Assembly (NCBI RefSeq): GCF_030867145.1
Contig: NC_134418.1
Span: forward strand, 50,753,682-50,817,681
Direction: 5' to 3'
From: Opisthocomus hoazin
Lineage: Eukaryota; Chordata; Aves; Opisthocomiformes; Opisthocomidae
DNA length: 64,000 nt
Shown here: positions 4,441-64,000 of the stretch, in pieces
How positions within the stretch are numbered: the first letter of the stretch is position 1
How the letters are laid out: each line of letters begins with the position of its first letter
Position numbers and translations under genes: made by a program
The notes under the pieces: generated by a model
Told to the model about the DNA's origin: nothing
Seen by the model: the letters and a program-made list of their open reading frames with translations, nothing else
Database searches by the model: none

Positions 4441-4877
4441 ACAGAATCACAGAATGGTAGGGGTTGGAAAGGACTTCTGGGGTTCTTCTAGTCCAAGCCC
4501 GCTGCCGAAGCAGGGTCACCTAGAGCAGGCTGCACAGGATCTCATCCAGGCAGGTTTTCAATATCTCCAGAGAAGGAGACTCCACAACCTCCCTGGGCAG
4601 CCTGCTCCAGTGCTCCGTCATCCTCAGAGTGAAGAAATTCTTCCTCATGTTCAGAGGGAACTTCCTATGCTTCAGTTTGTGCCCGTTGCCCCTTGTCCAG
4701 TCGCTGGGCACTGCCGAAGAGAGTCTGGCCCCATCATCTTGACACCCTCTCTTAAGATATTTATGGGGATTTATAAGACCCTCTCTCAGCCTTCTCTTCT
4801 TCAGGCTAAACAAGCCCAGCTCCCTCAGCCTTTTCTTGTAGGAGAGATGCTTCAGTCCCCTCATCATCTTCATAGCT
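4441..4877 (-). mobile_element. CR1 LINE, 5'-truncated 3' end
   Basis: On the minus strand this is the 3' part of a CR1 retroposon. The end of ORF2 reads as the usual C-terminal block (compare LRELGLFSLKKRRLREGLIN), followed by the short 3' UTR and a tail of CCAACCCCTACCATTCTGTG type ending in ATTCTGTG units at the left side. CR1 is the main avian LINE and most copies are 5'-truncated like this one. Confidence 0.9.
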
Positions 4878-6487: not shown

Positions 6488-7411
6488 TTACCAGAAGATG
6501 CCCATCTCCTTCCTCCGGTTGATGTCTCTCTTCAGCTGGCAGAGGGCACACATGGGGCAGAACATGAAGGAGATCCAGTCACTCAGAATGGAGCCCTGCG
6601 GAGCAAGGGACACTGTATGAATAACCCTGCCCCACGTTAGCTTTTAAGTCTTCCTATTTTTCATTGTCATCACCCCGGGGCAGCTCACCCCTGGCCCTGC
6701 AGCACGCTCCTGCACATGCCCAGTGAGGACTGGGATGAGGCGGTGTGCAATGGTATTACCTCCGGCTCACAGCGGGGATGCAGATCTTTCCCTGGCTCCC
6801 TGCCTGCGGGGCTGCCCGTGCAACTCCTCACCACCCCTCTTTCCCTCGGGTACTCCTTTCTCCTTCCCTGAGCCTGCACCCCAGCACCCAGCTCACAGCT
6901 ATCCCCTGCCAGCAGGGCAGGGCCCACGGCTGGTCACTGACCGGGATGTTGTATCTGGTGCGGTAGAGGGTCCTCATGGCCACGCTGGATCCGCACAGGC
7001 AGCACTCGTTCATGTCCCCGGCCACTTGGCACCCCAGGCAGGGGAAGCAGAAGGCTCCGCAAATACCTGTGGGACAGTGAGACATGGGCTCGGCTGAGGG
7101 GTGCAAGGAAAGAGAAAAGGGGGGAAAGCGGGCTGGGGATGCAGCTGTGGGAGCCATGGCTCTTAACCTCAGAGAGGAGCTGCTCTGCTGCTGGTACCCA
7201 CAAGAGTGGGGTTTGCAGCAGGGGCGATGCTGCAGAAGGAGCGGGGAAAACACCAGAAACACATTGTGAGCTGACACCAGGAATGAGGGGTATGTATGTA
7301 CTCACACACGCCGCAGTCAGAGCAGCAGTCCATCAGCCCCGACTGCCACTCGCCTACCCGTGGGGCAGTCATAAACTGGGGCTGGACTGTAATGACTTGC
7401 TGAGAGGCCAT
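6488..7411 (-). CDS. PLAC8: PLAC8/onzin-family protein, copy 1
   Basis: Three coding exons on the minus strand: 7411-7306, 7066-6942 and 6595-6488, giving 112 aa. All junctions keep frame: donor GTGAGT after a split Cys codon, then donor GTCAGT after Pro. The protein begins MASQQVITVQPQ and has the cysteine-rich PLAC8 domain: CICGAFCFPCLGCQ, then NECCLCGSSVAMRTLYRTRY, then CQLKRDINRR, ending MGIFW. This matches human PLAC8 closely in length (human 115 aa) and motifs. An acceptor (CCTTCCAG) 40 bases upstream of the start at 7451 shows that the start exon also holds 5' UTR (7412-7450), so a non-coding first exon lies further right (candidate near 10505). PLAC8 proteins act in cell growth and differentiation; the molecular role is unsettled. 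Which bird copy is the one-to-one orthologue of human PLAC8 I cannot say. Confidence 0.93.
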
Positions 7412-31100: not shown

Positions 31101-31784
31101 TGCAAGCCCACGGGGGCTTCTCTACCTTTCTGTCATAGTCGCGATCCCACATGTCGTTGACCGTGCAGCCGGCTCCGCGCATGAGCACCGCGCCGACGCC
31201 GAACAGGGACAGCGTGCGCCAGTCCGGCAGGCAGCCCGGCTCGGCCGCCAAGCCGATGCTCCAGGCGCACGGCAGGTACAGCAGCCACGTCCCTGGGGGG
31301 AGACAACGCCGGCGGGCGAGCTGAGGCGGGGGGCGAGGCGCGGCGCGGCAGGGCGGCGGCTCGTAGCGCAGTAACGGCACTGCCCGGCAGGAACGGGCCG
31401 CTGGCGAGGGCGGCGGGGGCCAGGGAGGGGAGTTACGGCCGCCGGCCCCGGCTCCCCCCCGCGCCCCGGCCGCCCCTCGGGGCTGGCACCCGCCCACCTT
31501 GACCCGCAGCGGCCGCCCCAGCCCCGCGCGTCGCCATGGTTGCCGCGTCGCCACGGCGGCGCGCCGCCCCGCTCACCGGCGGGCTGGTGCAGCCGCATGA
31601 GGCGGAGGTAGGGCCGCAGCGGGCCCGGCGCGGCGCGCACCAGCTCGGCCGCCGAAAAGCTGAGGGGCCGCGGGGCTCCCGGCGGCGCGGAGAGGTGGCG
31701 CAGCGGCGGGGGGGCAGCGAGGGGCAGGCGGGCGGCGCGGAGGCCGGGCGCGCCCCGACAGAGTCGCGCCAAGAGCGCCGCCAT
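25179..31784 (-). CDS. COQ2: 4-hydroxybenzoate polyprenyltransferase, mitochondrial
   Basis: Seven coding exons on the minus strand: 31784-31577, 31292-31126, 30125-30004, 29770-29685, 28803-28670, 28220-28032 and 25292-25179. They join in frame to 339 aa. The enzyme attaches the polyprenyl chain to 4-hydroxybenzoate in ubiquinone synthesis, in the inner mitochondrial membrane. Seen: an Arg/Ala/Leu-rich N-terminal targeting peptide, the first Asp-rich motif NDMWDRDYD at about residues 115-123, the second DTIYAHQDKRDD at about 233-244, and many hydrophobic helices. Similarity to human COQ2 is high throughout ([26 protein letters not shown]…GIVLGNL). The start has a good Kozak context (AAGATGG). 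The C-terminus is short, ending GNLCK, whereas human has a longer charged tail. No breaks. Confidence 0.96.
26859..26900 (-). other. COQ2 last-exon-like segment in intron 6
   Basis: A 17-base exact match (26871-26887 versus 25189-25205) to the end of COQ2 exon 7. On the minus strand it reads [11 protein letters not shown] then stop, compared with [14 protein letters not shown] in the real exon. The 15 bases upstream also match at about 10 positions. A weak acceptor (CTTGTCAG) would put it in the right phase after exon 6. It may be a decayed exon duplicate or an alternative last exon, or chance. Confidence 0.35.
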
Positions 31785-32150
31785 CTTGCCGCCGGGTGTG
31801 GCGGTGTCACGCGGTGTGACGCTGCGCCGCACATGCGCAGCGCCCCCCTACTTCCCCTCCTCCCCCTCCGAGGGAGCCGGGGACGGGGCTGCGCGTCCCC
31901 ACGCCCGGGTCCCCGGGGCGTGTGTGGACTGGAGCTTCCCGGGAATCGAAACTGCGGGTCAGGCCGGGCGGAGCCCCCCCCCCGGTGCTGGAGCGGGCGT
32001 TTCCCCGTAGGCCCGGCAGGAAGCGGTGTGGAAGCGGAGGGCGACAGCCAGGCCTGCTGGCAGGGGGTGTGAGGGAGGCTGGAGCCGCGCACGCCGTCGG
32101 CTCCGGGCAGTGAGCGCTGACAGAGCACCCGGGCGGGACCGGTGGCGAAA
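31100..32150. promoter_or_regulatory. CpG island at COQ2 start
   Basis: Very GC- and CpG-rich, covering COQ2 exons 1-2 and about 350 bp upstream, with no TATA box near the start codon: a housekeeping promoter. The island continues rightwards and could drive a divergent transcript; a plus-strand AATAAA follows at about 32358. No coding exon is evident on that side. Confidence 0.75.
31776..31788 (-). promoter_or_regulatory. YY1-type motif over COQ2 start codon
   Basis: Minus-strand CAAGATGGCGGCG contains the AAGATGGCGGC core known for YY1 sites, which often sit just downstream of the transcription start in nuclear genes for mitochondrial proteins. The ATG of the motif is the COQ2 start codon. 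Confidence 0.55.
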
Positions 32151-36642: not shown

Positions 36643-39600
36643 TTAAATGCAAGCAATAGCTTTGGCATTTTTGATAACATAAAAGCCGTAGGAGAAGGCT
36701 GGAAGGCCGAGTATGCTGCCAGGACCAAGGGGTTTTTCAATAAGCTCTGGCAGTGTGGTGTCATCCACCATCCGTAGCACATGGCCGTTCAGCTCAATAG
36801 ACCTGTGGAGAGACAGAAAAACTCTTTGGGCAGCTGTGCTCTGCTTGCCATAGAGCACAAACAGCTCTGTAGCACAAGCAAGTTAAGAAGTACATGTTTC
36901 TTACTCTCCCTAGTGAGGTTAACAGCAGAATAGGCTTTGAAAAGTACAAATTTTAATTGGTTTTTCTCCTGCAAATATTAAGGTAACTTCTATGCCCACA
37001 GAGCAGATCCTTCCCATGCCAATGCATTAACGATAATGACAAAAGAAACCATACAAAGCCTGAACGTATTGCTGTAAATCAGGAGCCTGCACTTGTGAAA
37101 GCACTATACCTGTGCTTGTGCAAAAGAAAAAGGACTTTAGCAGCTGGTCCAGAGCCCTGAAGCATGCTAGGAAAAAGCTTCCCAACTAACATTGAACAAG
37201 TGTCCTTGTACCTTAGCAAGCTTTCAGCAGCCTGATTTTAGGAGACTTAATTTGACAGAAGTCAGGCCTCACTGAAAAAAAACCCAGATGACAGAATGGT
37301 AACCTATCTCCCCACCTTGCAAATTGCATAAGGTGAGGTTTTAGAGGCCATCTAACTCTACTCACAATCCTTTCTACAGAGACAGGAGGAATTGCACGCT
37401 TACCTGGAAAGTACATTCTCTTTGCCATGAGGCAATAAGAGGTACTGATCCACGTGCTTGCTCGATAAGTAATTTGGTAGCTGTAAGTGTTGGGTAATGT
37501 TGTAGAGGTTTAAGGCAAACAGCGTCACGTCCCCTTCTCTGTACTTTGGGCTGCAAGGCAAGAGAAGATAATGGTGGGGATTGGGTGAGAAAGAAGTTTC
37601 AGAGAAATAACGCGCATCCTTGCGCTGTCCCACGTTGCTTTTGCTGGCCTGGGGGTGGCCGTGGGCTCAGTTTCTGGGATATTTCACCCTTTCTGGAGGC
37701 TTACTGGAGGGTGTTTGTGCAGTGGAGGTAGACGCGGAGCTTCTTCTCATCAGCTCCTGCCAGGCCAACCTGCAGCACCTTGGTACCCACCAGCTTCTTG
37801 TAGAGCAGCGAGAGCCAGTAGTCCTGGGAGGCACAAACACACACGTAAGCACTTGTGTACATGCCAGGTACTCCACACGGTGCTTAATGTAACACCCATT
37901 TTGCTGGTAACTTCAGGGTATGTTTCCCCCCACAATTTGTTGCTTTACCAAGTTTTTCACCATATCTATTTAAATTCCCACAAACAACATTAGCTAAGAG
38001 AAAACCCTGCCTCCAAGCTGCAGAGCAGCTGTGTTTATGAGGTACCTTAGAGTCACTTTCCCCTTTATATGCAAACCTCAGAGCTCTTTCTGTGGTGGAG
38101 ACACTGTTTTCGTTTTGGCAACGCCCTTCTGCAGGGTGCAGAGCAACCCACGGCTGAGCCTGCGGGGGATGGATGAGCTGCCCTGCCTGTGGGAAAGCCT
38201 CTGCCCCATCCACAGGCACAACACCGGGGAGAAGCCCCCGACAAGCTCTATGCCTTTCACTAACATCGAGCTTTTGGAAGGTCTCGGGATTAATTTCTGA
38301 ATGCCAGTCAAGAGTAAATCCTCTGACACCCCAGGATGATGCCCAGTGCAGACTCATTTTTTTCCAGGTCTGCTTTTTCTTGCATCTTGACCGCTACTTT
38401 TCCTCAATGAAGTCCATGACCGTACCAAAGACAGTGCATGGTCTGTGCAGCAGTGTTTTGGGGCTGGGAGGCCACAGGCAGACTGCATTTTGCAGCATCG
38501 CTTCTCTGAGTGCAGCCCCAGGGGAGGATGTGCTCCAGCTGGCGGGTTTCGAAGAGCTGCTCCCAGCTCATCTGTCTGTCTTTGAGGTTTTCCTAGAAGG
38601 AAAACTGTTGTGCTTCAATCCTGACTCTCCATGAGCCTGGGGAGGTGACTTTTCCTATCGGCTTGCAGGCTCAGCACCTCTACAAGAAGGTGCAGCCTTC
38701 TGACACTGCTATGCTTCTTCATTTCCAGGCTAACTAAAACTGAGGGACCTGGGTTTGGATTTTCCTGCCTCTAAAACATTATTAGCTTGATTAGTGTTTG
38801 TACTGCCTATAGATGAGGACCAAGGCACATACTTTCGGTCCAAATTAAACCTATTTTAAATAGAGGAAATAAAAAGCCCAACGCAACAAGCTTGACAACG
38901 CAGCCCCTGGTACAGGGACCAGCTGAACAGGCAGGACAGAAAAACCCTCTGTGCTGGGTTTCCTCTCAGATGGTCTCTATGAGCCTGTGAAAATCACAGC
39001 TTGGAAGCAGAAAAATGAGAGCAAAGCTAAAAAGAAAGATGCTATCCTCTCACTCCAAGGTAAGTGCTACTAGCACAAAGAAACACTCTGTACGTGCAAG
39101 AAAAACAGTTCAAATAATGATGTTCCATCACAGCAGAATGTTATTTCCTAACAAATCCAACTATACTAAATGCATGTTTTCATTTAATTATCCTTCAGCT
39201 ACTACTGAAGGCTAAATATGCTCATGACCTAAGAAATGCTTGAGTCTTGACTTTCTGTTGGTTTTCACTTTATTGTTTATTATAATACCTCGTATCACTT
39301 CTCTTTAAAAACTACTCATCACTCAGCTGAAGAGTACTCAAACCAAAACAGTCCATCCAGAAAAGCCTTGTGAACTCCAGAAGCATCTGCATACAAATCA
39401 AAGCCTCATGTCCCAGAAATCAGTCTCTGCTGTGCTAAAGACTAGCTGCATCCCTGCAGTTGCAGTAAATACCTTGTATCTATATATACACAATACAGGA
39501 ACCCATAATGAAACATGAGCTAACTTTAGGTGCAAGGATAACTATGACTATCCTACAAAATCTGTTGCTATCTTGTTTTTTCAAAATAGCTGACTTGTAT

Positions 39601-42600
39601 CTCCACATCCAGTGTTGCCTGTGCAGAAATACACGCAGCATTCAGACGGTGTTAGCAGGGTTGCATACATACCGGTAAAGGCTCAAAGTTGGCATCCACC
39701 AGGTGATAGGTCCCCGCCCCGAAGAAAACCTGTCTCATCACCACGTCAATCCCCTGCCTGGCTGAAAGCCCGAGTTTGTCCAACCACCTGCCAAAAAATG
39801 AGGCAAAAAACATGCAGAAGAAATTGCCAATCTCAACCATACACTGTTGCCCCTCTCCAACCAGCTCGGGAAGTAGGCAAGCAAGAATTAGAGTATGATG
39901 CTGACTTCCTTAAAACCACACAACTAATTTCAATTCAAGTCTTGCACTGATTACCTTAAAAATTTTTTTCAGACCACCTATGGAGGTCTAAGCTGGTGGG
40001 AACAGTTGCTCCACTCCCCTGTTTGCAGGTGGTGGAAACTAGGAGCGGCAGCTGAACTGGCTAAGGGCCTGAAGGCTGAGAGAAATCATCACACGAACGA
40101 CCAGGTTGCCTGCCTTTACCAAGCTTTGACTTGCTGACCCACCAAACCCTGATGAAAAGGTCATCATACCTTACAGGAGGGAAAAAAATACATTGCGACC
40201 ATGTTTTTGGTTAATTTTCAAAGTGTGAACCACACATTCCCATGCAACTTTATCTCCCTGAATGTACAAATTGATAAAAATGCTCAGAAAAGCCGGAATT
40301 TTTTTATTTAAATGAAATACTACAATTGGAGTCCTTGGAGACAATTATTTTCATGACTAGATTTCACTTTGGTTAGCTACTTCATGGTGGTTGAAGGATG
40401 ACATTGGAAAAGGACACCCATCTCATGAATGACTTTCTGTCCGCACAAAAGGATAGAGTGAGCATTGCAGATTTGAGGGCAGAAATACAACTTTCTCACA
40501 CTTCTCATCCCTTGTTTCCCACAGGAATCTGCTGTTACCTGGGCCTACACTGAACTTCAAGCATGGGAGAAGCGCGCAGGGAGGGGTGCGAGGATCCTCA
40601 ACCCATCCATTGCCTGTGCTTCCCGGGAAGCCTGAGGGGGACTTTCCTCCCGTGGTGCATATACCCCCTTCAGCTGCTAAAATGTGTAATTTCCCCACAC
40701 CTGTGACACAGAACTCACATAAAGCCAGCAACATAAGTGTTGGACAGCCTGGGAGCTCCACCTCCATAGGCAGAGCTCGTCTCTCCTAGCCAGATCTTCT
40801 TGTCAGGCACAGTCCCACCAACAATCTGGCCGGTGTCATGTAGGGAAGAACACAAAGAGACAACAGTTACGATTTCTGGCTACTGAAATAACGGGCAATC
40901 TAAATTTTGTGCTTTAGCCAAATGCTTACGTACAACATTTATGTTTAAAGGCTAACATCCCGCTACTGAGGCGGGATGTCACAGAAATTTTGATCAAAAG
41001 GACTAGAAACAAAGTTACTTCTCTCCTTCCCCCCCAAAAAATCACATCTATATATGTAGAATGAAGCAAGCATCACTAAAAGCCAGGTCCTGTAAGTCTT
41101 CTCATGCTGAGTAGTGGTATACTCTAAGTTACACCGTTCTCAGTATCTTAAAATACAAAGAAGTTAACTGCATCGATAAATGAGAATGTTGTAGGTTTGT
41201 GATGGATCTGGCATCACGCGTGCTGCATGGCAAACTACTGGAACTCATTTATTATTAGCATTGCTATTTTTTTTTGTTTTATTTACAATGACAGCAGCAC
41301 CCAAGCTTTGAGGATCCCTGTTTATGGCTAGTAAGAAGTTGTACTTAATTCTGGATTCTCTGCTAACCCCCTGGGAAACTGAACATAGGAATGATTGAAC
41401 AGGACAAGGCACCTCCAGGACTTTGCGTACAGCTGTGGCAAATGTATCCAGCACTTTAGGGCTCAAGAAATCCGCCCTTGTTGCACTTCGTCCATTCACA
41501 TAGTAACTGGAAATGGAAAAAAAACACAAAACCCACAGCCAAAATTCAGGGAAAATACCACCACTGATACAAAACACCACCAGAAGTACTCAATCGCTTG
41601 ACACATTTATCCACAGCGCTATTTTTCTGTCTAGTTCTTCTTTTTTTTTTTTCCAAATGTGTAGGTATGTTGTTTGTATTTAAGGGACTATCAGGTATAA
41701 TTACCTTGTTGGAGGCATGATGTCACAGAAATTTTAATCAACAGTAGTAGGGTGTTTTTGCATCTGCTTACTTAGAATGAGGAAAATATTACTGAATAAG
41801 AGCCAGCTTCCGTAAATCTTCTCTTGCTGAGCAGTCTGACATTCCTATGTCATTACTTGCTTTACTGTATCAAGTTGAAAATATCAGATGCCAGCTTCTG
41901 TCTCTCAGCTGGAGTATTTTGGCCACCTGGAGAGGAACGGGATGGAGGCATCCCTATGGGATGAAGGTTGCCCTCCACCATAAGCAGAAGAGCTTTCAAG
42001 TCTTGTTGGTCCAAATAAAGAACAGGATACTGGCATCCCTCTGTTTTTTTGCATTTCATCATGCTATCACTCAGTCCTGCCAGAATTAGCTGAGGTCTTC
42101 CAGCCACAAGAGGAAGCTAAAACCTGATAATTCTAAATTAGTAAAGAAAACAATGCATGCCCATTTAAAGCAAAGGCAGCTACAGGGCAAGAACAGCCCA
42201 GGAAGGGGAAAGGACGCATTGTATGCCTTGCTAGCAGCTCAAAATACATAGATAAGTCATGTATGCATACATATCTACAATATAAGCATGTGCATCTTTT
42301 CCCACTGTTATCTGACTGCTGCATGTCACCGTGCTGCATTCAACTCAGGAAAAAAAAACCATCTTGACATGGAAATCACTTTGAAATGTGGAGTTCATGG
42401 CCTGTGCCCCAGGGCCAGCTTAGCGCGCTGCCCACCTGAACACTTCAAAACTGTATCTCTAAGCCCTGGCTCGAGAGCGAAGGGCTGGGACTGTGCTGGT
42501 GCTGTATGCACTGCGGGTGGGACCCAAGCGTGGTTGCCTGCACACAGCCAGAACTGACTTGGAGAGCAAATGCGAGGGAGCAGGAGAAGCTGGTAGCACT

Positions 42601-45600
42601 TCTCTATGGACAAAGGTCAGCCAGACCTGGAGGGCTTTTCACTTATATCAAACTGACATTAATAGAGAAAAAAGCCAGCATGGAACGCATCAGCCAACAA
42701 AGCCTCTGCTGCATTTTTTACGAGAAGCTGGGTGCATTTGCCAGCAGGGTCATCAGTAACTCCCTGAATTTGCTTTCAGGGAGCGAAGCTTTCACTCAAG
42801 CCGGTTCAGCCTTTCTAATGCCAAGGAGGGCACCAATGTCAGGGGTACTAACGCTGTTTCAAAGCCCAGCCACCCACAGGTTGTTTAAAACCTTATGTCA
42901 AAAACCTTCTTCTGTTGCAGAAGTTCAGCACAGGCATTTCTGCAGAGTAAGTCTGAGCTACCTTCTTTTCCATGTATATGACACCTCCTTCTTCCCACGG
43001 GAAAGTACATTTTATTTGCAAGAGTTGGCAGCTTGAAGCTTTGAGACAACTGGGACTGCTGCTCAGATCTCACTAGCTTTTACTATATGTTGAAACACGG
43101 CATATGCAAAAAAGCTTAACCGCTGCAGAAACTCTCCTCGAGCAGGGGAGAGTGTGACCTACCCCCTCATGCTCTTCTAAGAAATAAAGCATCCGTTCCA
43201 TCTATTTCTCCACATCCCACTTCTGTTTTTCTCAGTGCACATATTTAGGAAGCAAGATGACCGTCTTGCACATGCTGCATTCCCCGGTCCTATGCCTACG
43301 TTACAAACCCCTGCCTGCTGCTTTTGGGTCTCTGCACCAAGTAGCCTCTTTGGAGACCTTGTGCATTTCTGTAACATGCTCCCTCAATTCATCTCTTATT
43401 CTTAGTAAAGCAGTTTGCAGAAAGGCACCACAGGAACTGCTAATATGGGTATTTCACGCCCTCCTTCCTGCTGAGATGTTCAAATTGACACTTTATAAAG
43501 AAAACAGCGATAAACAGAGTGACGATGGTATCCGAGCAGTACTTACTGGTGCCACGTAACAGAGTCAATCACCTTCCCTCCCGATTTCAGGAAACTGCAA
43601 CCAGAGCGGATGTGGTGGAGAGCAGTGTGTTAGCAGGTACCGGTGATGGGTCACAGGCGCCCACAAGTGAGCTGCCATGCACAGCCCTCCCCTCTACCCC
43701 TGGCTGGCAGTAGTGATAGTGAACTGCTTTGGGGCCATGCTTGCAATGGTTTTTAAATGGGCTCAAATAGGCTGGATGTATCCATTTGTACATCCTTACT
43801 ATTGATTTGGAGCAGAAAAATCCTTAAAACCCTGCCCAGCTGCCTCCCCATGCCCCCTGCATCTGGGTGCAGATGAGCCACCACTATCCATGCCTGCCCA
43901 CCCTGGGGGGTGCCGCCGGGGTCCCACTCCCCTACCTTCTCAGTAGTCTCTGCGTGTGCTTTCGGGGCTGCCCGACATCGGGACCGTAGAGCTTCGCGTG
44001 CCGGTAGAGGACATAGTTATTCAGAAGTTGGCGTAAGTGAATAAAATCTTGCCCCAGCTGGAAGCCGTCGATGTAGACACCAGATTTCTTTCTGAAGCTA
44101 TTGGGCTCTGGGGGAGACACATGAGCATCAGCACCCTGCTCCAGTTTCGAGTTTCGGGGCACAAAATACACAGCTTGTTCCACGTAGGGAGTACCAACCC
44201 CCTATGGCTTCACGTGGTTTGGCATGGTATGGGTGAGATGTTCAAAGGCGATGAGCACGAAAACTGAAAGCCCGGGTGACAGAGCGTGGTGCTCTGCAGC
44301 ACTCTGTCCCAGCCAGTCCCCATAGGTGACATCCTGCACCTCGCGAGACATCCTTCACCTCATCTCAGAGCCTTGGTGGGAGCATCAAAATCATCTCAAT
44401 TTGCTCATTTGTTGGGCTTTCCATGAAATCCCTCCTTGCAAATTAAGACCTTAATGTTTCCTATTAAAACATCACCTTGCCTTTACGGGCCATCATCTAA
44501 AACATCCAAAATTGCCAGCCACAGCCACCAAAATTACCACCTGCGGTGGTACCTTTCCAGGTGACTGCTGGCCTGGCCCACAAGCAGGCTTTGCACTTAC
44601 CGTTCCCGAGCTCCCAAGAGATGTTGTACCTCTGCGAGGCACAGTAGCCTAGCAGCGCCTGGGCATTCGAGCTGTCCCACTGCAAGTCATCTTTCCGCAG
44701 CAATGCGTTGAGCCCAAAGATCAGGTGAAAACCTGAGCAGTTTGCAAAGCTGTAGAGAATATCCAGTGTATTTCCTGCTCAGAGGAGAGAGGGGAGGATG
44801 TTTATCTCAAGGTTACAGCATGCTATTTGAGCTCTGGCCAAGCGACAATCATTACTGCCTGTATTTATTTAGCCTGGTGCTGCAGATATGCCAAGCTCTC
44901 CCAGTCAGGCAAAAGAGCTCAGACCTTACTACATACCATACTGCAAGGTGCTGAGATACTCCCAACTTCTGCAGCAGCTGAATGTTATTAAATATGAGGT
45001 GGCAGACAGTAGAAAAAGATTTCTTAGAAACATTTCACTCACTTAGAAAAATATTAATTTTCAGTGGTTTTAGCTCCTAACAGCCTACAACCCTTTTAGC
45101 GCAGGGCAGAGATTTGCAGCCCCCTTGTTATAAACCCTAGCAGAAAAATCCATCAAAGTCTTACTTGTAATGGTGGTGTTTTTGTGCTTTTTCCAGTTAT
45201 GCTCTGCAAGAATCAGCTTCTCCTGGCTGGGCCACTGGGCCAGCAGCAGCTTCTCAACAGCAGCAAACGCAGGCCTCGAGCCACAAGCCTCTGTAGGGCA
45301 AAAGAAGGTTGACAGCAATTAAAGTCCTTGTCTTCATGGCCAGGGTCCAGCTTGCAAAGCGCTGCATCCCTCAGGAGGAATCACAACTGCTTGGTGCCAG
45401 GCGTAGCACCAGTCGTGCACTTCTGTGAGACGCTGCCCTACTTTCACAGTGTTAACCACATAGAAAAAGAGGGCTAGCTTGGTGCACAAATATGTATTAT
45501 ATATATAACGTATATTTCCCAATGTAAGGTGATGGAGATGGGACTGAGCTGTGCTTCTGGAGGATGATCACACCCCAATAAACTATTTTAGCTGAAGCGC

Positions 45601-48490
45601 CATCCAGAAACCCTGGTTCCAGTGAGCTGACAAAGCACAGGCTGTGGTGCTCAAGTAGCAATAAGCCACCCCGCCGTGCAGCGGTACGGCAGGGCTCATG
45701 GCTGTGGGCAGATATGGGGCAATGCTTCCTGTGCTGCCCGTCTTGTGCAGGGAAAAGCGCTGACTGCCCCGCACGGCTCCAACAGCAACGCTGGCAGGAC
45801 TCATGACACTTTTTCTTCAAAGCTCGTATTTTTTCTTGGCATGCAAACCAGGAACAAGCCATAACCAGAGTGGAAGGCCAGAGTCACAGCTACCCAAAGA
45901 GGAGGTGGCAGCTTAGCAAAGCAGTACGGGGGAAAAAGTACCACTCGACTTCAAAACCGAGCATCACTGGTTGGACAGTGATGTATGATTGCACTGTTGT
46001 GCTATGTAACACAGGAATAGATGGGATTTTTTTAATCTGAAGCACCTCTAGAAGGGTTTATGTGCTTTTGCTAATTTTTAAGACGAAATGGTCTTTGATG
46101 CAGTGGGAAACCCATGCACCAGAACCAAGCTTGAGCAGTTGGCAGTGGTCCGGTGGGTTTGCACTTGTCAAAGTGACCAGAGAGCAAGGCTAGCTCTGGC
46201 TTTGGCCAAGGTAGAGAAAATGGACACTCTCTTCTCATCAGATTATTTCTTCCATCCGTTACTTAATTTTCATAATGAAACCACAACTTTTGAGCTGACC
46301 TTGACCACCTCCCAGGCATCGTGAGAGCTCCCAAGGCTGCTGCAGGGAGTGTGGGGTGGCAAAGAGAGAGTCCCAGCAGGTGTCGGGGTGGATGTGAGGT
46401 CCCCCGTGCCCTTCCTTGCTTTTCCACGGCTGGCACAGCTCCTCCCATGGACCGTGCTGAAGGTCCACAGATCTCCTCTCCATTGAGGAGAGCAATCCCG
46501 AACCCGTGGAGGACCCCCAGGGCTGCCGCCATGCCCTTGTGACATACCCAGCCTATATCAAAGCCACCTCCTAAACCCAGGATGGTTTTGAGTCTAACAT
46601 GTTTTACCTTGCTGGGCCTGAAGTTCCCAAAGGATTTTTTCTTCCAAAGTTGAATCCTTGTTGGGATCAAAGATGAGAAAATCCGTCTTGGTGCCGCCAA
46701 ACCTCAGGAAACCTGGGGACAGAGCTGTTGCCAGGGCACGCAGTTTGGGATTGCTGAGGAAACGATGTCAAGAAACAGAATAAAATCTGTATTCATGCAG
46801 ACTATGGTTTTGGTGTAGAGGTTAAACACGGCAAGTGCTCGGAGGGACGTTCTGCAGTAGGTGATCTGGTGTACCCAGCAGCCTCAGGACACTCCTGACC
46901 CCTTGCTGGACCTGCGCCCCAGCCCGCTGCACTGTGCATCAGAGACGCTGCTGGCCAAGCAGGCCAGGAGAACGTTGGTGAGGCAGCGAGGGGGAGATGT
47001 GCCCCAGGAAACAGGCTCACAGATGGGGAGTCAAATCCTGGTGGCAAAATAAGGGAATACTTCAAAACAAGGTGGTTTTTTTTTCAAGAAATTCTGTTCC
47101 CCTATATTTTTTGGTGTTTTGTTTTTTTTTGTACAAAACTAACATACCAGTACCTTGAGAAGACGGACGTAAAACTGACTTTACACCATCAGTCCCAATT
47201 TCCATCAACAACAGCCAAAGCGATCGCTTTTGTACCCAAGAGAGATTAAGAGTCCATGTTGGGACAAGTATTAGCTTTAGTGAAGCAGGTTTATGAAATA
47301 ACGTAAGCTCTGCCCCTGCGACTTGCATGCACCCCAAGCAGGACGTGCAGCACCGACACCTGGTCTTGGCTGGGGAAACCGCGAGGCATCGGAGGATGCT
47401 GGGCGCAGAAGCACTATCTGCTCCGTGGCGACACGCAGCAGATTAGGGGCCACCAAGTACTTCCCCTTCCTCTCGTGGCAGCAAGGTTGGCCCCATACTG
47501 AACCCCAGGGTGTGCGGCTGGGGATGGAGGTTTGAGACCTCAGCTCTTTGCAGTAAAGCTGGTGTCACCTTTCTCCCCACCTTGGTGAGGAGGAAAAGAT
47601 AAAAATGGTGGGAGGAGGGAAATCAGGACTGGAAAAATACAGAGGGGCTAAAACATGAGATCACACAGATGAAAAGGAAAGAACTAAGCTTCCAAAAAAG
47701 GCAGAATCAAAAGGAACAGAGCACAAAAAAAACCCAAAGCAAAAGCAGGGAAGAAAGGGCAAGAGAGAAGTCGCAGCCAAACGGACAGTCAGGGAACGCC
47801 ATCCCTCGGCAGTCCAGAGTTGTTCAGTGTTACCCAAGCAGGGAAAACGTCTTCGTTTTTACGATCTCTCGATTCAGTTTTGATGGCAGCAGACCTTCCT
47901 CAGCATTTATTTGACTTTACGTTGACACTGCCCCAGTAAACATTTGCAAAGCTGCCCGAGGACTCGGCCAGCAACGGCAGGTACCGCCTCGCTGCCCCGG
48001 AGGGGTGAAACTGCCGAATCCCGGAGCAGAGGGCGTGCAGCAGCCTGCCCCAGCCGCGGCTCCAGGGGTTGCGTGCAACGCTCCAGGTCGCAGAGTGCAA
48101 CGACAGCGGGCTGGAAAGCTGCTGCACGCTCCTCGGCTCCCCCCGCCCCCCCAGCTTTCGCCGGCTCCCCGCCGGCATGCCCGGGCTCCCCTCTCCGCGG
48201 CTGCGGACCTCTCCCCCTGCCCCGGAAACCCCCCTGCAGCCCCTCTCCGGGGCCCGCTCGGTTATGTGTGGAACCGACGGGGAGGGAGGGAGGAAGGGAG
48301 GGAAGGAGGCGGCTCACCTCAGCAAGGCGACGTAGCGCGGGTCCCGGGCCAGGCTGGCGTCCAGGGTGAGGGAGAGGAAAGCCGGGCTCACCTCCCCTTG
48401 GGGGCTGCCCCGCAGCCCCAGCTGCAGTACGGCCGCCCGCCGCCCCCCCGTCAGCGCCAGCAGCAGCAGCGGCAGCAGCAGCAGCCCCAT
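36643..48490 (-). CDS. HPSE: Heparanase (endo-beta-glucuronidase, GH79)
   Basis: Twelve coding exons on the minus strand: 48490-48318, 46753-46608, 45290-45165, 44774-44601, 44107-43936, 43594-43547, 41506-41413, 40825-40719, 39787-39673, 37823-37705, 37550-37404 and 36802-36643. They join in frame to 526 aa. It cuts heparan sulfate chains in lysosomes and the extracellular matrix. Seen: signal peptide [23 protein letters not shown]; the acid/base Glu in GNEPNSF (about residue 207); VTWHHYYVNGR; the nucleophile Glu in [12 protein letters not shown] (about 326); [11 protein letters not shown]; and the C-terminal end [15 protein letters not shown]-glycosylation sites NTT, NIS and NIT are present. 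Length fits chicken HPSE (about 523 aa). The family is cut into 8- and 50-kDa chains around the linker, here residues of exon 3. The start follows the signal peptide and a good Kozak context; an in-frame upstream ATG (48589) is less likely. Exon 7 has a weak donor (GAG|GTGCCT). Confidence 0.97.
40962..41836 (+). repeat. Diverged direct repeat pair flanking HPSE exon 7
   Basis: Two copies of about 130-150 bp, 40962-41115 and 41710-41836, share blocks such as ATGTCACAGAAATTTT and TCTTCTC-TGCTGAG. HPSE exon 7 (41413-41506) lies between them, in a spacer of about 600 bp. I do not recognise the family. Confidence 0.6.
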
Positions 48491-48800
48491 CCTCGGCTCC
48501 CGGCCCGCCGCGCCGCCGGCACTGGCACCGGCACCGCCCCGCGCAGGGCGGGCAGCGCCCAGGGGCGGGGGCGCAGCCCCTGCCCCCACCCCTCCGCGAA
48601 GGGCGGGGGCGTCGCGAGCAGCCGGCGCCGAGACCCTCTCTTGCCCCTCTGAAGGGGGCTTCGGGCCGCGACAGCGCCCTTGTAGCGCAGCCCCGCGCCT
48701 TGAGCCCCGGCCGCCCCGCGGCCCCTCGGCCCGGCGCGCGGCACCTGAGGCGCGGCGTCACCCCCCGGCAGCCTCGACCGCTGCAGAACGCGCCCGCCTT
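47990..48800. promoter_or_regulatory. CpG island at HPSE start
   Basis: Very CpG-rich block covering HPSE exon 1 and about 300 bp upstream; TATA-less. It is open in long frames on both strands because of its composition. Confidence 0.75.
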
Positions 48801-53449: not shown

Positions 53450-55806
53450 GTGCAAATCATTTATTTGACTTCTGATGTTATCCAAGGTCACACAGAAAGC
53501 CTTGGGGGAGTTGCACTCACCCATCTGGCAAAGCACAGCCTGTGTAAACAGGGCAGCAGAGACGACAATTGTCAACCTCATTTTCTTTCCAGACCAGCTT
53601 TGTGCAGACCTGAAACCACCCACTTATCTCAAGCCAGCTTTTGCTACTATTTGTAGGGAAGAGCTGACTTCATTCCTAAACCTGCATCTCACCAAAACCT
53701 GATCTTGCAACAGTGCTGGTTGTTATGGTGGTGTACAAGTGTGAGGAGGGGTAGTTAGCGACCCGACAAAAGACAGCTGGCAGAAGTAATTTTTTTCCTG
53801 CCGTTCCCCTCCACAATATAAAGATAAAAATGTAATGTTTTTTTAATTAACGTACAAGTACAAATATCATGGGAAGTATTGTGACAGAGGTTAATGGCTC
53901 ATTAACTATTCCTGTAAGCAATTAATGGATTATTTCCACAACATCAGTTATTGCAATAGCTTAGTACTCAGAGTGAATAATTTTACAGTAATTTGCTCCA
54001 TTTCTTTTTTCCCCGAAATCCACGCAACACCGTTTCAAACTTTGAAGGAACACCATCAAGCACCAGTAAACCTTTAGAGCAACTGGTTAGGCCTTAAAGA
54101 CATCACTAAAATTTTCCTACATGTGTGCGACAGAGGTACTCACATTTATGCTGGAGTGAGCATCATCTGTCTTTTGAAGATAACACAAACAAACCAATAG
54201 AGAATTTCATGTTACCTATGATTTGGTCAAAAAGGTATCTTAGTTAAAAGGGCAAGGCATTAAGAGGTACACTTAGATAACTTCAAGTCATGGCCAATTA
54301 TACCTTATTGTTAGAGCCAATTTAAGATGTTCTCATGCTTCCAAAACCATATGTGCTTTAGGCACTTAAGTATCAGTAACAGGATTCCCCTGGAGGCACT
54401 GAATCTACCAGTGGGAGTGAATCATGCTGCCTCTGTAAAGTGCTGATTGTAAATTCTTGACCTGGTTTAATACCAAATACACTCAAATATTTCACTTATC
54501 CAGACTTTGTAAGCCACTACGAATTATCACCATCATGGTGTCAGGGGCATGTTTCTGCTAAATGGTGGGTTAATAAAGAATTTATTCAATTGCTACCTAT
54601 GATTTCTCTAATGTAACAACAAAATGATCAGCAAAATACTAGCCTTTTCATCAGTCTTTCACCATAACCCCTTTCAGCCAAGTATTCAGTCTCTAACAGC
54701 CCCACTGGATTTAAAACCATTCCTGTTTATCTCTAGAATTTTAACACCATTAACATAAATTGAATAAAAACCACAATTTAACTAAGGTTTATATTGCTTT
54801 TCCTTTACTGAGAAGGGACACCTGATTTTACCTAGAAAAGCCATATTTAAGTGTGACAGTATACTGGTTACCATGATTTAACCCAGCAGTCTGTCACAGC
54901 TTTCAAGTTCTTCTTAATGTGCGGTGCTCTAATGTTGTCATGTACTATGCACCAGCTTTAAAAAGGAGTTTACTGTATCACAAATGAAGAAGTTTCACAC
55001 GTCTTCAAAAAAAAGTAGTTAAAGCCTAACTTTTTGACAGGGCAAATCAGTTTCAGATACCTTTAAAAATCTTAACTAGTGTGACTGACACGTGTCCATG
55101 GAGTCTCAGAACTTAATATGGCTTCTCAAAAATCAGTTCTTCAAGCCTTCGTCTTTACTAGTCTTCACATTTAAGCATGAAATTTAAAAACATTTAAAAA
55201 TTTAAACTTTCTGTTTGGAAGACTGCTGTACAAAGATTCAGAAAGAATTCTCTCTCAGGAAATTACCTGAGACTGAATACAAATTTGATATTTGCATGTT
55301 TTAACAAAGCTTGAACTAGACATCATTTACAATTTCTTACAGAACTCTGGGACAACTTCTTTGTTATGAACTGCAACTCTATTTCTCTCCTTCCACTAGC
55401 TACAGCTAGAGTACAGAGATTCCTGCAAGTAGGAATTTTGGAGTAGTTCACTCAAACACATATGTCCTTAAAGGGAATATCCAATGTAAGGGCATTATTT
55501 AAGTCAGCTATGAACCTCAGCGCCAGGCAGAAGTCCACACCAGCCAGTTAGTTCAGTCCCCAAAGCACTCCTAGGGCTATGTCTAAAAATGAATGAATGA
55601 ATGAATGAAGATCACATCTTTTGATCCTAGGCTGTTGCTCAAGAGGTTCATAGTCAAAATCTTAAAATGAAGTCAACTTTCCAGGAAACAATCTGAACTC
55701 AGAACTCACACAAAATTGAGGTATACAAAAGACATTAAACATTTATTATAATTGCAGGAGCTTTACAGATGAAAGTTAAAAGTTTAAAAATAACCCGATT
55801 TTTGGT
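53450..55806. other. HELQ downstream region, nothing recognised
   Basis: AT-rich, no gene. A short (TGAA)5 microsatellite lies at about 55588-55608. Confidence 0.4.
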
Positions 55807-57221
55807 TCATGATTTTTCTTTATGACGATTGGTCAGTAGGGTCCCTGGGATATCTGTAGGCACCTTTAAGAGTTCTTCAACTTCTTCTTGTAAAGCCTCA
55901 GCTTTTTCACCTGGCAGCATCTGTAATGGAAAAAATATTACAAAACAAATACAAGCATTAGCTATAACTGTTACACAGGTTAAAACACCAACGTGTCTGA
56001 ACTTACACACGGTCTGTAAAAAACTTCTGCTGCTGCTCACAGAACCACAGTACCTTTGCCTCAAAAGACCAACATTTTTGACTGTTTAGTCTATATATAT
56101 ATATGAAAAAAACACTAATACAAAAATTCATACAGTACACAGCTGATTTTCTCTATTCTGCCATGACATAATACACAAAATTCAACGGAACATAAACAGT
56201 TTTGACTAGAACTGTTAACAAGCATTTTTAACCTTAAACATTTATTTTCCATGTTGGAATAAACATTCCTAAGTTGTGCCTGCCAAGTTGCCTATTTCTT
56301 GCTTTACACAAAATTGATTACTATAGCATTTTACATCAGACATATGGGACTCCTGATGTTAGCAACTGTTTGATCTACTGCCCTGAACTGTTTGTTGCTG
56401 GCAGTCGCTGTGTAACAGTCCCCCAGCAGCATATGTAGCGTAACACATGCAAGCACTCTTCTAACCTCCCAGCTAGAGAAAACTCCACCAGTTTAATATC
56501 TGAGCACGGGAGTAAACTGGATTGCTGGATTTGGCACTGATGTAGATGAGAAATCTGCATATACCCCTTTCTTTTGGCTCACACAGCAGTAAAAAAAGCA
56601 GTAAGGAGCCTGCAACAACATTAAACAGCAACGACCTTTTAAGTGCATAAACCCCAAAGTTGGTACTTTTATTCCCTTGGCTCCTCCTTTACCTTTGCAG
56701 ATGAAACAATTTGTTTGGCTTGACATCGTGACAAGTGTTCAATCATCTTGACCAGAGTTTCTGGATTTGCATTAGCCACGTGTGCTAAAGTACCCCCAAG
56801 ATTTACCTCCCCATACAATCTTACCCAGCTCTTAGGAACCTATTTGTCATTATTTTCGCTGAGCCTGGATGATACCAACTCTGCCATCCTCTTCTATTAC
56901 CATGTTTTCTGCACTCATTGTCACAGACAGGAATGACTGTCTCATGTTCTTTGGAGGCGTCTAAGTGAAAGGAGGGCCGATTTTATCTGTTTCATTTTTT
57001 GCCCACAGAGTTTTCACAGGCAGAGCTTTCACAAAATTCCAGAAAAGACTATACTTTCCTGTTTCAAGCTTATAAATATTTTTTCTTTTAGTATCACAGT
57101 ATCTTTTTAATTTCTCTGGTTTTGTGCGAAGTCATGGCTGTGAGCTCATATATACAGGAGATGATAAACACATCACAGGAGAGATTCTCTGGCATTTGAT
57201 TGTCACTGATGTTAGCGAGTG

Positions 57222-57558
57222 TGCATTCTATAACTACCTGAAAGGACGTTGTAGTGAGGCAGGTGTTGGTCCCTGCTCCCAGCTAACCAGCAATAGGATG
57301 AGAGGCAATGTCCTCAAGTTGCTTCAAGGGAGGTTTAGATTAGATATTAGGAAACATTTCTTTACTGAAAGAGTGGTCAGGCATTGGAATAGGCAGCCCA
57401 GGGAAGTGGTGGAGTCACCATCCCTGGAGGTGTTCACAAAATGTGTAGATGTGGCACTTCGGGACATTGTTTAGTAGGCATGGTGGTGTTGGGTGGATGG
57501 TTGGACTTGATGATCTTAGAAGTCTTTTCCAACCTATGATTCTATGATTCTATGATTG
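57222..57558 (+). mobile_element. CR1 LINE, 5'-truncated, in HELQ intron
   Basis: Plus-strand CR1 3' end with AGGTTTAGATTAGATATTAG, GTGGAGTCACCATCCCTGGA and tail units CTATGATTCTATGATTCTATGATT (positions 57534-57556). The reading [17 protein letters not shown] is typical of CR1 ORF2 C-terminus. It sits between two HELQ exons in the opposite orientation. Confidence 0.92.
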
Positions 57559-57899
57559 TCAGCTGCTCTGAACTTGTTTGATCCTGTTGCTATGTCAGGT
57601 AGCCAAGCAGTATCTGCTTAATAGAGGGTCTCTGGGCAAACATCTACTTTGCTAATCAAATACTGCTAGAACTTTACAAAGTTTAAATTAAAATGCATTT
57701 CTACACTAGTAGTGGAGAGTAATCTAGTATGCCCAAGGCTTTAGCATCCTGAGTTACAGAATAATACCCATTTGATGAGCAAGCATTACGCCCCCAAACA
57801 TTTGGTGAATTACCTCTGCATCTGTAGAAAATTTTGTATTTACTCAAAAAGGTTAAGAATTTAGGTTAGAATTAGTATTACGCTAAATGCAACCACAAT

Positions 57900-58475
57900 G
57901 CCGCTCGAAAGGCCTGAGATGTTGTTCTCAGCCGTGTCCCTTGTACAGACCCACCCAAGGCTGGCTTAAAACCCAGTCAAGCTAATCACACAAAGACAAT
58001 ATTAACAAATGCTGATTATCTAAATCAGGTTTATCGCAGTATAGAAGGAAACTATTTGTATGAGAAAATTGATTGCTTTAACTAAATTTTTAAGAGAACG
58101 TCTTGAAGCCTCTCGAAGTCTTTCTCAGAATTGTACCAAGCAGAATTCATAGAAGAAGGTAAAGGACAGACGACAACCCGAAGACGACCCTGAAACCCAA
58201 TGGGACCTGAAACCAGTGAGGGAGAATTCTGCTAAGACAGAAGAATAGCGAGAACTTAATAAATGATGCATTTAAGGAACTGGACGTTGCTTAGAAACTT
58301 ATGAAGATTCTACACTTGATGTAATTGGTTTAAGAAATGTATATAAACTGGTCTAGCAAGTTGAGCTTTGCCACTCATTAAGGTGATGGCCCAACTGTGA
58401 GTTGTCAATAAAGCAAACGTAGAGGTACTCACATCTGGTTGTACAGTATCCAACATGTAACGGGTTACAATATAT
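57900..58475 (+). mobile_element. Possible solo LTR in HELQ intron
   Basis: A TATA-type box (TGTATATAAACTGG, about 58337) is followed 60-70 bp later by AATAAAGCA (about 58408) and an end-like GTAACGGGTTACA at about 58456-58468. This spacing is that of an LTR promoter and poly(A) region. The left end and target duplication were not found. Confidence 0.4.
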
Positions 58476-61400
58476 TATCTTCCTCCATAGTAATTGAGGA
58501 CTATGCAGGTTCATTAATGTGACAGAGGTGTCATTAATCTCAGCACAAATAACCACTAGTTGCCAGCAAATATTTTCTGTACTCTGTTTGGCTGTTACAT
58601 GCACAGTATGACAGATGATGCAGAATCTCTCCCCGCTAATGATTTAGATCTCATGAAAAGGTTTTAGACGGCTCTTTGAAAACTGTACAAGTAAGGGGGC
58701 AGAAAATAATTTTCTCCTTTACTACAGTAACCTAAAGATTGATTTTATTGTTTCCTCCACAGAAATCTAAGCAAATTACTTCTGTTCATGATTGTCGTCT
58801 ACCTGCTACAAATATCAGCTGTCGGTATAGTTTTAACTCCGATGCAGAAGTACCTTGGTGGTAGCAAGAATTATGAAGAGCCATCTTTAAAATGCAACTT
58901 CAGCAGAATCATGCTGTCCAGGCTGGTTTTGCCGTTACACAGAAGTGCTCCCATATGGAGTGAGCCGTGAAAAAAAGACTATGTACCTTTTACAGTCAGT
59001 TCAGAAAACTTGATATATACAAAAAACCCATTACGCTCTAAGTCTTCATAATTGTTTAGCTTCTCAGAATAAAACCTTACTGCCACTAAATTCAATAGTT
59101 TGCTCACAAACTGATTCTACAATAGGCTGGACAGGCAAGTTTGAAGCCCAGAAAGATTTTCTACTTTAACAGAAGTCTTTGATTCAGAGATCAGTTAAGT
59201 TTCTTAAAATACACGCAGCACTGAAAGCAATGATAAAAACCTAAGTTCCCAATAGGACTTCACATGTTTATAAGGATCGTCTCATTTAACTAAATATGTA
59301 AATTCTTACTCCTCTTCATTCCCGTGAACTGAATAATCCTTACCACAAAGGAAACCTGGACTCTGTTTTCCAACTGAGTATGCAGCTACATTGTTGTCCA
59401 AATACAGCATTTTCACTGTTGCTGTGGCAGCAGCCAGAAGAAAAACATTTTTGGCTGCAGCTCACATTTCCTCATCAGACCACTTTTTCCCCAGCCTCCA
59501 GGACTGTTGTGGGATATCTGCACTATTCCAAAATCTCAACACAACACTAGCTTAGTCTACCAGATATACTTGAAAGACCCAGAAGGATTTAGCATACAAG
59601 TTTACATGGAAAAATGTCAAAGCCAAGTTTTACTAAACTCTAGAACCCCTGCTACCTCCATCAGAGGGATGAGTTCTGTCTTAACACAGTATGTCAACTG
59701 CTTAGTAAGTTCTGTCAGTAAGGCTTTATAAAGTCAGAATTCTTCCAGTTCCTGCAGAGACAAAGATCACTAAAAATCAGATCCTAAGTTCTGTATTTGG
59801 GGGTACAACTGATAAGAGCTCTGCTACAGCAACAAGCATCTATTTGGCTATTAGACATGTGAAGCACTATTATTTCTAGTTATCATTGCAGCCAGTTGCA
59901 TAGTTGTGTTCAGCACTCTTCAGCTGAACATCCCAAAGTTGGGGCAGTTCTGAAGGATAAGCAATGGGTTATTTCAAAAGAGGAATAAAACCAAGAGAAC
60001 AAACCAAATCAGCTCTTTCCCTGAGATGACATTCCACAGCTAGACGGCCTTATTTCCAAGAGAAAGGTAAAATTCTCAGTTATTTCACCAACAGTGCTGA
60101 CAGTGATCAATGCCCTGTTCAGTTTGTATACTTTCACATTCACAGTGCATAAAGCTTCCTTTGAATGTAAGAAATAACCTCTGTACAAGCATGCTTTTCT
60201 GAACAGTAAAGACAATTTTGAACAGGAAAGGTGAAAAAAATGGAGTTTTGCACAGGATAGGTGAAATACACCACATGTGTTCAGTTTTAACATAAGAAAA
60301 AAAACTCCAGATTTTGCAAAATCAATCCCAAATAATTTATTGAAATTCATTTAAACACACTACTTCACAGAAATGTAGAACACAGAAGGTGAATGATTTT
60401 GCACATATCCTAGGGTCATATTAAATTTCTTTGAAAGACTCCATATATTAGTCTCCTTCAGTAGGGTATAAAAGACAAATGACAGGTAAAGCCTGTTCAC
60501 CACAGCACTGTCCACATTCTAGGAAGAAAACAAGTGGAATTCAGAGCCAATATCCCATTCAAGATACTCAGTGCTACAAGGAAATTCTTTTCATCTCTAC
60601 TCCTTCACGTCTCTAAAACATGGCTGTATTACATCCAAAGACACCAAACAACATTAAGAAAATCAACCAATGTGGTTAAAAGACCTTAATAAGCAGAACA
60701 GTAAAAATCACTAGCAGAAATATAATCTAGAATTTGAACTGTCACCATAGGTATAAGAAATCTCCAGCCTACCTTTCTGATGGCTTGACCAGAAGCCTTT
60801 TTTGTAGTAAAGCTTTCAGGTGCTCCCACAATATCCGCTACTTTTTGCTCTGCTGCACTTAGCTGATTGAATTAAAATAAGATTGAGTACAGTTAAGATT
60901 ATTTATTAACAACTCATTAGAAGTTACAAGTGTGATAAATCAGAAGAGCTTCAGACAATGTGAATATACTCTATTTAACTGTAAAAAAATAATTCACATC
61001 AAGTTTGTATAATGATGATACCACCTTCAGACAGATAATTTGCTTTCCCTTTTGCTCTGTGAATGACAAGCTTTCATTCTTTTTCACCTTGAATTTCACT
61101 TGTGTGGAAACACATTTTCACATGTGTTCTGCTGATAAACTTATGGTGTGCATACATATGCAGCTTTTCTTTTTATAAATGTGTAGCCCACACATCATCA
61201 TGTTTCTCACATCCCTTGGTAAAAATGTCTACTTGTATATTTAGGATTCAAGATGACCCTGGAGCAAACCCTGGAGAACCATGTCACTTCTATGTGCTCA
61301 AATATTTTTTCCAAGAAATGTCATCAACTTTAAAGTATCTCCTGGATACTCCTCTCCAAATAGTTATCAAAGGCTGTTCTCCAAGCTTAACAATTGTTCT

Positions 61401-63577
61401 GCAGACTCCAGGAGAGTTTTATAAAGAATTTTCAGATCTGTAGTTCTCTTAATATTTTCTTAGAAAATACAAGTCTACTTCTCAAAGCGAAAAAATGTTT
61501 TTCTGTATCCCTATACAGCACTCTGTTACTAGACCAGTATTATAGTCACTAGACACAGTCAGATCTGCAGCTTCTTTGCCTACTTGTTTGAATTATCTGT
61601 AACTGTCCATCTCCAAATGCCACATTTTAACAAAATTCAACAGATTTTAGTGTTACCCCTAGTATACAACACATTACAGAAAAGGGAGTATTTGAATTAT
61701 GGGTGGATCTTACAGAATGTGCAAGACTGTGCGTAAGGGCTGTGCTGCTAAGGCTGACATCAGCACAGTAGTCTGTAGGAAGGCAATGGCCACAGTTGCA
61801 ATCATGGCCGGAGTTAAGCATTAGACTCAGATGTCAAACAAAGATTAAGACTTAACACTCTTTGTGTATTTTGCTCCTTAAACTACAGATTAAATGAGCA
61901 AGCATCAGAAGTTAAACTGATTAATCCCCTGTTCACAATACCTGTTCATAACAATGAATTATAAAACCAGGTTGTGAGCCATTTTGATTACAATCACTAA
62001 ATCAAACCTTTAAATCTTTTTTTGAGGGTACAGTTCTGGTTTTACTCCCATTGTGACCAAAGTTATTACACTTCATTCCCATCGCGTTCAGTCATGCACT
62101 ACTTGTTCATCCCCATTTTCAGTCCAGCATGTCATTTAGTAACCAAAACTGTCTCTCTACAACTTCTTTTTCATTGCGGTTTCAGACTGAAGATGGGAAA
62201 ACCTATCAAACTGAGATAAGGCTGAGATGAAAGGGTTTGTTGAAATAAAGATTATATAGAAATAAATAAAAAGCCTTACCTTTCTGTGTAGCTTTACCCA
62301 AATGTGTGATTGTTAGCGCACATTTGGAATTGTGGTCCTTCTCAGATATTCTTCCTTTTTGAAGTCCTTTTTCTACTATATTTTCTAGCCCATCTTTCAT
62401 TATTTCTGAGAGGCTCTTCTTTTTAGACAGCAGCTGCTGCTGAACGCCCAGAAATGTACTGCACATAAAATCATTGACTTCTTCATGGATAACTGCTATC
62501 TGCATCAGTTTTGCAAGTCATTAACATGTTTAAAGGTGTCCTTTCACATAACACATTTCATAAGCTATATGAAAAAAAATTACTGAATAGAGAAGCAGTT
62601 TGATATCCTGCTGCTGTGTTTCTACAGAAATCCAGGACAACAAATAGAATGATAACAGCCTATGATGGATCTGATGGGACTGCTCTCCCCCTGTTCTATG
62701 ATTCTAGCTACTGCATCGTGTTGTTTCCATGGTTTCTAGTTGTATTTTGAATCAAGCATCAGAAATGGAAATATTATTAATACTGTAATGTATCATAAGG
62801 TAGATACATTTTTTACTTTTACATATAAAGAAATAGTCAAGTTCCATGATTACTTGAGAAGCTAGTTAAATAAACAGATTAATCAAATCTTTGTCCTTCT
62901 TATCTGATTAGAAGCTGTCCTGAACTTGTAGCAAATCTGTTTAATAAGTCCCTTTTTTCTGTACTATCAACAGATAAGATTTTCTTTGCATACCCAAACA
63001 CTTAAGTTACTCAGAGAGAAGAGTTAACTGATACCTTCAGTCCAACCAAAGATGACAACAGGCTCTGCATTCACTTGGTCAATTCCAGCAGAAGATTGCT
63101 GTAACAGTTCTCCAGAGGACTCTTAACTAAATCCTGAACCTAAAAAAAGCAAGAAATATATTAGTTTGGGGAAAATATTTATGCATTAGTTTTACACTTT
63201 TCGAAATACTGATACACATGATTGAGCTTATAAAGAAAATAAGTGTAGACATTGAAAGTTTAGAGTTCACATCTGAAAACAAACCACATGATGGTAGTTC
63301 ATAGGTATTACTACGTAAGTCAAATACTTGCAACATTAAGAAGTAAACAAAAATTAAGCTAGGCAGCTCAGCTTCTCCAGTTCAGCCAACAGCATAATCC
63401 AACATTTTAAATTACCAACAGCTTTGTAAAAATTACTAAGTGCTTGTCTTTTTCTTGTGTTATGAGAACACTTTCTCCAGCACTGTCAAGACTAGCTCGA
63501 CCAGCTCTGCCAGTCATTTATTTGTACTGGTTCTTCTTCAGGAAGTCATTAGCAATATAAGAAGCTCTTAGAATAAC

Positions 63578-64000
63578 CTTGTAAAGAAGTCTTTAGTAAG
63601 CTATGCTTTACATTAAAATTACTAAAGCAGCAATAAAATTTTACAGATGCGTTCTTTACATACGCCCCTTGCTAAGTACCGATAAAAATCAAATGCACCT
63701 GTTTGAACAGATGTGTAAATTAACCAGGAAAACATTCAACAATTTAGGGTTTATTGAATGATAAGCTATATTTATTTTGTTTTGCAGAACCTTTGGAACT
63801 AGCCTCTACATCTACTCAAAGGCCTGAGTTTAAGAGTGAAAATCACTGAGAGAAGCAAACATAAGCAATACGGACCATACATCAGTTATGCTAGAAAGAC
63901 AACACTTCCCTCTCTGAATATTTTTCTCCCCATAGATGCGTTATTCCAACATACATGCACACAAAACTGGATTCTTAGCAAACAGTCTTTGGTCATACAG
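63578..64000. other. HELQ intron, no exon recognised
   Basis: The next upstream HELQ exon (the CTSTLAAGVNLPARR region in human) was not found before the right edge, so it lies outside or is lost. Confidence 0.4.

Follow-up and report, generated by a model that had tools for sequence, protein, structure and literature searches.

The HELQ sequence in the window, by which we mean the whole 64,000-nucleotide stretch of Opisthocomus hoazin DNA analysed here (C5:50,753,682–50,817,681, from a 1.48 Gb assembly with 415 contigs), is very probably a duplicated, unprocessed pseudogene (psiHELQ), and the working HELQ of this bird is most likely another copy (HELQ_B), which lies 1.85 Mb away in the opposite orientation. 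The duplication of HELQ itself is established. The earlier note had called the window copy a unitary pseudogene; the assignment as a pseudogene stands, but it is not unitary, because an intact copy with 18 exons is present on the same contig at C5:48.95–48.97 Mb.

Exons and lesions of psiHELQ were assigned by aligning it against the intact copy as reference. The duplicated segment occupies positions 54991–64000 of the window on the minus strand and extends a further 8 kb beyond the window, to what would be its position 72039. Exons 10–18 of 18 lie within the window at 55807–63578, also on the minus strand, and exons 1–9 lie beyond its end at 71736–64443, with exon 1 at about 71736, in the next 30 kb. 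All of the lesions named in the earlier note were found: in-frame stops in exon 10 (TAA at 63520; exon at 63437–63578), exon 11 (TGA at 63073; 63035–63139) and exon 16 (TGA at 59736; 59638–59751), a donor changed from GT to TT in exon 16, a frameshifting deletion of 19 bp in exon 15 (60364–60518), and the absence of exon 13, at whose site (61861–61926) psiHELQ lacks the equivalent of about 1 kb of the intact copy. The statement that the remaining splice sites were normal held only in part, as the acceptors of exon 10 and exon 14 (60773–60871) are changed from AG to AA. A further lesion, missed at the first reading, is in exon 17: compared with the intact copy, about 215 bp are deleted, which takes away the acceptor and 5′ part of this exon and leaves 56693–56791. 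Exon 12 (62280–62499) is open, and so, as noted earlier, is exon 18 (55807–55920, placed by alignment to the intact copy), which ends with a stop at 55807 and encodes a C-terminal tail longer than that of the intact copy, where 1 nt is deleted.

Past the window there are nine further stops, three in exon 2, two in exon 3, and one each in exons 4, 6, 8, and 9; exons 1–9 also show frameshifts and altered splice sites, the donor in exon 4 and the acceptor in exon 8, which is interrupted by an insert of about 390 bp. The 892 codons compared, a set that excludes exons 1, 13, and 17 and a further 10 codons with gaps, contain a total of 12 stops in psiHELQ. Lesions hit 13 or 14 of the 18 exons; the lesion-free exons are 5 and 7, past the window, and 12 and 18 within it. 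Two doubtful splice readings (exon 2 acceptor and exon 8 donor) did not enter the counts. Placement of exons 1, 13, and 17 by MAFFT was unreliable and exon 17 was aligned anew; the stops that had appeared in exon 17 were false products of that placement. Reasoning from the assembly rather than from reads, we agree with the earlier view that sequencing error is not a plausible source of this many separate lesions. Two inserts within the window are missing from the intact copy, neither with an assigned strand. One, at 57226–57561, resembles other sites in the region, ends in ATTCTATGATTCTATGAT, and is presumably CR1-like; the other, of 632 bp at 57816–58447, looks by eye like a solo LTR.

When the DNA of exon 12 was searched against the bird's own genome it matched two places, the window itself and, with 89% identity on the opposite strand, C5:48,962,442–48,962,670; the exon 12 peptide gave no match in a sequence search of the PDB. 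The second place belongs to HELQ_B (C5:48,953,586–48,970,877, plus strand), about 1.85 Mb from the window copy on the same contig and inverted relative to it. Its exons were joined by splice-site and human-guided choice, yielding 18 exons with GT-AG introns and a single 1043-aa open frame; the guides, human HELQ and its neighbours, were protein sequences that may deviate from the reference entries. The HELQ_B protein is identical to this human HELQ at 682 of 1028 aligned residues. Pfam matches to DEAD, Helicase_C, HTH_61, and POLQ_helical were above cut-off and HHH_5 was below its cut-off, and the protein thus has the superfamily 2 helicase core and the HELQ/POLQ C-terminal domains by which HELQ is recognized. 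In the last exon (C5:48,970,791–48,970,877) the deletion of 1 nt relative to the pseudogene alters and shortens the final residues, a tail that falls outside the Pfam-matched domains. A PDB search with the HELQ_B helicase core returned 69 distinct sequences, headed by POLQ and Hel308, with no HELQ-named entry among the best 60 of the 69. In a six-frame, genome-wide search with the HELQ_B protein, scored among the best candidates, 33 of 37 matches fell at C5:48.95–48.97 and C5:50.81–50.82 Mb; the other four were distant (37–58% identity), three at C1:137.17 Mb (46–58%), which are probably POLQ, and one at C2:84.2 Mb (37%). Among these best candidates there was no third HELQ locus in this assembly. 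An intact copy elsewhere in the genome, the finding that the earlier note had named as able to overturn its reading, therefore exists.

The two copies are collinear through introns and exons, a stretch that spans 17 kb in the window copy and 21 kb in HELQ_B. On the MRPS18C side the similarity stops about 35 bp upstream of that gene's start codon; on the other side it reaches beyond the last HELQ exon, by 0.8 kb in the window copy and by 3.1 kb in HELQ_B, inserts included. Window positions 4876–6019 hold a sequence of 1.1 kb that is 90% identical to an insert in this 3′ flank of HELQ_B; 5 bp of the empty site are shared by the two edges of the HELQ_B insert, in the manner of a target-site duplication, and the shared sequence is probably a mobile element copy. 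Identity between the HELQ copies is about 87% in introns and 90% in exons; by aligned block it is 82–89% in 11 of 13, 73% in the promoter block, and 95% in the exon 17 block. Because similarity runs through the introns as well as the exons, we consider the duplicate to be unprocessed, and the presence of introns rules out a processed (retro) copy. Intron divergence, taken over columns passing a local-identity filter, is 0.140 substitutions per site, which at the neutral substitution rates of birds means that the copies probably split tens of millions of years ago; the suggestion that the loss was fairly recent is accordingly doubtful.

Divergence at codon positions 1, 2, and 3 is 0.101, 0.094, and 0.115, and dN/dS between the copies, with stop codons left out, is 0.49. 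The amino acid differs at 152 of the 892 codons, 12 of these being the stops in the window copy. At the 152 differing sites the human residue equals that of HELQ_B at 70, equals that of the window copy at 21, equals neither at 56, and has no counterpart at five; the asymmetry of 70 versus 21 has a two-sided p of 2.5e-7. On the promoter side the ratio of observed to expected CpG is 0.90 in HELQ_B versus 0.53 in the window copy, whose promoter region has lost CpGs. This pattern of substitution fits one conserved and one neutral copy, with HELQ_B conserved and the window copy drifting.

The neighbours of HELQ are divided between the two copies. Next to psiHELQ on its 3′ side is HPSE (36646–48757, minus strand), whose exons were placed with the human protein and whose first exon was set by eye on the basis of an open frame, its outer end being approximate; COQ2 follows (25230–31847, minus strand), with an outer end that is also approximate and taken as the end of an open frame. 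HELQ_B keeps MRPS18C, ABRAXAS1, and GPAT3. For human genes we take AGPAT9 to be a synonym of GPAT3, and the orientations within the human block are assumed. The human block comprises COQ2, HPSE, HELQ, MRPS18C, FAM175A (ABRAXAS1), and AGPAT9, as given in an excerpt of one report (PMC5340257). In O. hoazin this block is thus divided between two places, each with a HELQ, and the syntenic position claimed for the window copy holds on the HPSE side only. HELQ_B and MRPS18C stand head to head with start codons 352 bp apart, and the two genes probably share a promoter. At least two sets of GPAT3-like exons are present (C5:48,853,525–48,925,049), suggestive of tandem duplication next to the rearranged block. 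To the right of either HELQ, over about 110–120 kb, a search for coding neighbours with 15 proteins or fragments gave no match at E 0.001, and the features listed there comprise only repeats and open frames without an assigned name; the only matches of these queries were COQ2 and PLAC8, both inside the window. Two PLAC8-like genes stand in tandem at window positions 6494–7091 and 12268–14018 (minus strand).

That HELQ was lost in this bird, with the window copy as its unitary remnant, agrees with the confirmed lesions and with the position of the broken copy beside HPSE and COQ2, as unitary pseudogenes stand beside some ancestral neighbours; we nevertheless consider it highly improbable. Judged by sequence, an apparently functional copy exists elsewhere in the genome, the intact 18-exon HELQ at C5:48.95 Mb beside MRPS18C, which is conserved relative to human HELQ; with an open, conserved copy about 1.85 Mb away, the proposed loss is unsupported and HELQ has probably not been lost. 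The 1-nt deletion in the last exon of HELQ_B and the 21 residues at which the window copy equals human are points against HELQ_B as the working copy. Even less credible is an assembly artefact, in which the copies would be two haplotypes of a single gene or a falsely duplicated locus. Both copies lie on the same contig and are separated by runs of N, as such an artefact might leave them, but an intron divergence of 0.14, flanking genes that differ, and numerous insertions and deletions private to one copy together exceed allelic difference by far; we rejected a haplotype pair on these grounds. The duplicated, unprocessed pseudogene that we prefer has what is found in others of its kind: introns retained, several coding lesions, divergence that is nearly the same at all three codon positions, and a parent copy in the genome that is intact by its open frame and conservation. 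It differs from them in nothing of substance, the HELQ copies being inverted at a broken synteny block.

As the six genes form one block in human, HELQ was probably duplicated, and inverted, when a rearrangement split the block; we lean toward this link between duplication and rearrangement. Breaks flanking HELQ, staggered or assisted by repeats, would have left the 17–21 kb segment as inverted copies at both new junctions. The copy joined to HPSE would have been cut within the short HELQ–MRPS18C region and then decayed, and the copy joined to MRPS18C would have retained that region whole and remained under selection; the probable shared promoter region, cut in the window copy yet whole in HELQ_B, may be the reason for this outcome. 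In Drosophila subobscura, staggered-break inversions leave inverted duplications at the inversion ends, according to an excerpt of one study (PMC5080602). The HELQ copies resemble these in being inverted at the ends of a displaced interval with their neighbours divided; they differ in that the other expected adjacency, with BMP3, was not found and in that the copied segment, of 17–21 kb, holds a whole bird gene. Inverted copies at both ends and divided ancestral neighbours, as expected of duplications at inversion breakpoints, are present here, given the assumed human orientation. One inversion predicts BMP3 just past the pseudogene, if human gene order is taken as ancestral, but BMP3 is at C5:88.27 Mb, 37 Mb away. 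RASGEF1B-like exons lie at C5:49.34–49.36 Mb (plus strand), in the opposite orientation to the one that human order would predict, followed by HNRNPD (49.42 Mb) and SEC31A (49.55 Mb), both on the minus strand; the PRKG2 match on C5 is weak, 58% over one stretch with a stop. The RASGEF1B-like first exon is present in three copies (C5:49,336,750–49,352,344). From the placements of BMP3, RASGEF1B, HNRNPD, and SEC31A against human order, we concluded that the region is the product of more than a single event. The position of BMP3 goes against the prediction from one simple inversion; the placements of RASGEF1B, PRKG2, HNRNPD, SEC31A, GPAT3, and BMP3 speak for the split of the block and not for a single clean inversion.

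Another route, which concerns only how the copies came about and is compatible with a duplicated pseudogene, is an earlier segmental duplication elsewhere followed by recombination between inverted copies that swapped their flanks. It would yield the same inverted copies and split neighbours, and the position of BMP3 points to a history of several steps; it needs an extra step, no direct trace of it was found, and we regard it as possible but rather unlikely. About 7 kb past the intact HELQ begin degenerate TTAGGG repeats that extend for more than 100 kb on one strand only, from C5:48,978,000 to at least 49,084,899. They are possibly an interstitial telomeric block, which may be centromeric, or a former chromosome end. 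We mention as a speculation, less probable again, that a rearrangement beside this block, possibly a new or moved centromere, broke at HELQ and copied the gene to both sides, and that only the copy with the promoter shared with MRPS18C survived. The repeats include two 2500-N runs, about 79 and 92 kb past the intact HELQ, which are either gaps in the assembly or sequence withheld, so that the order and distance of the two HELQ blocks may rest on scaffolding.

At the level of titles and listings, the papers listed for HELQ in birds, in chicken, or together with MRPS18C and HPSE contained no report of this pseudogene. In the excerpted portion of a study of chicken embryonic heart, HELQ is among the differentially expressed genes (PMC9390884), from which it follows that at least chicken has HELQ. 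With psiHELQ recognized as an ordinary pseudogene, found at a rearrangement of modest interest, the claim that a bird has lost a conserved DNA-repair helicase is removed. The case also carries a caution, that where synteny holds on one side only, a broken gene does not preclude an intact copy across the break; because the intact copy may sit there, scans for gene loss that rely on one flank can report false losses. What the two HELQ copies provide instead is a datable marker of chromosome rearrangement.
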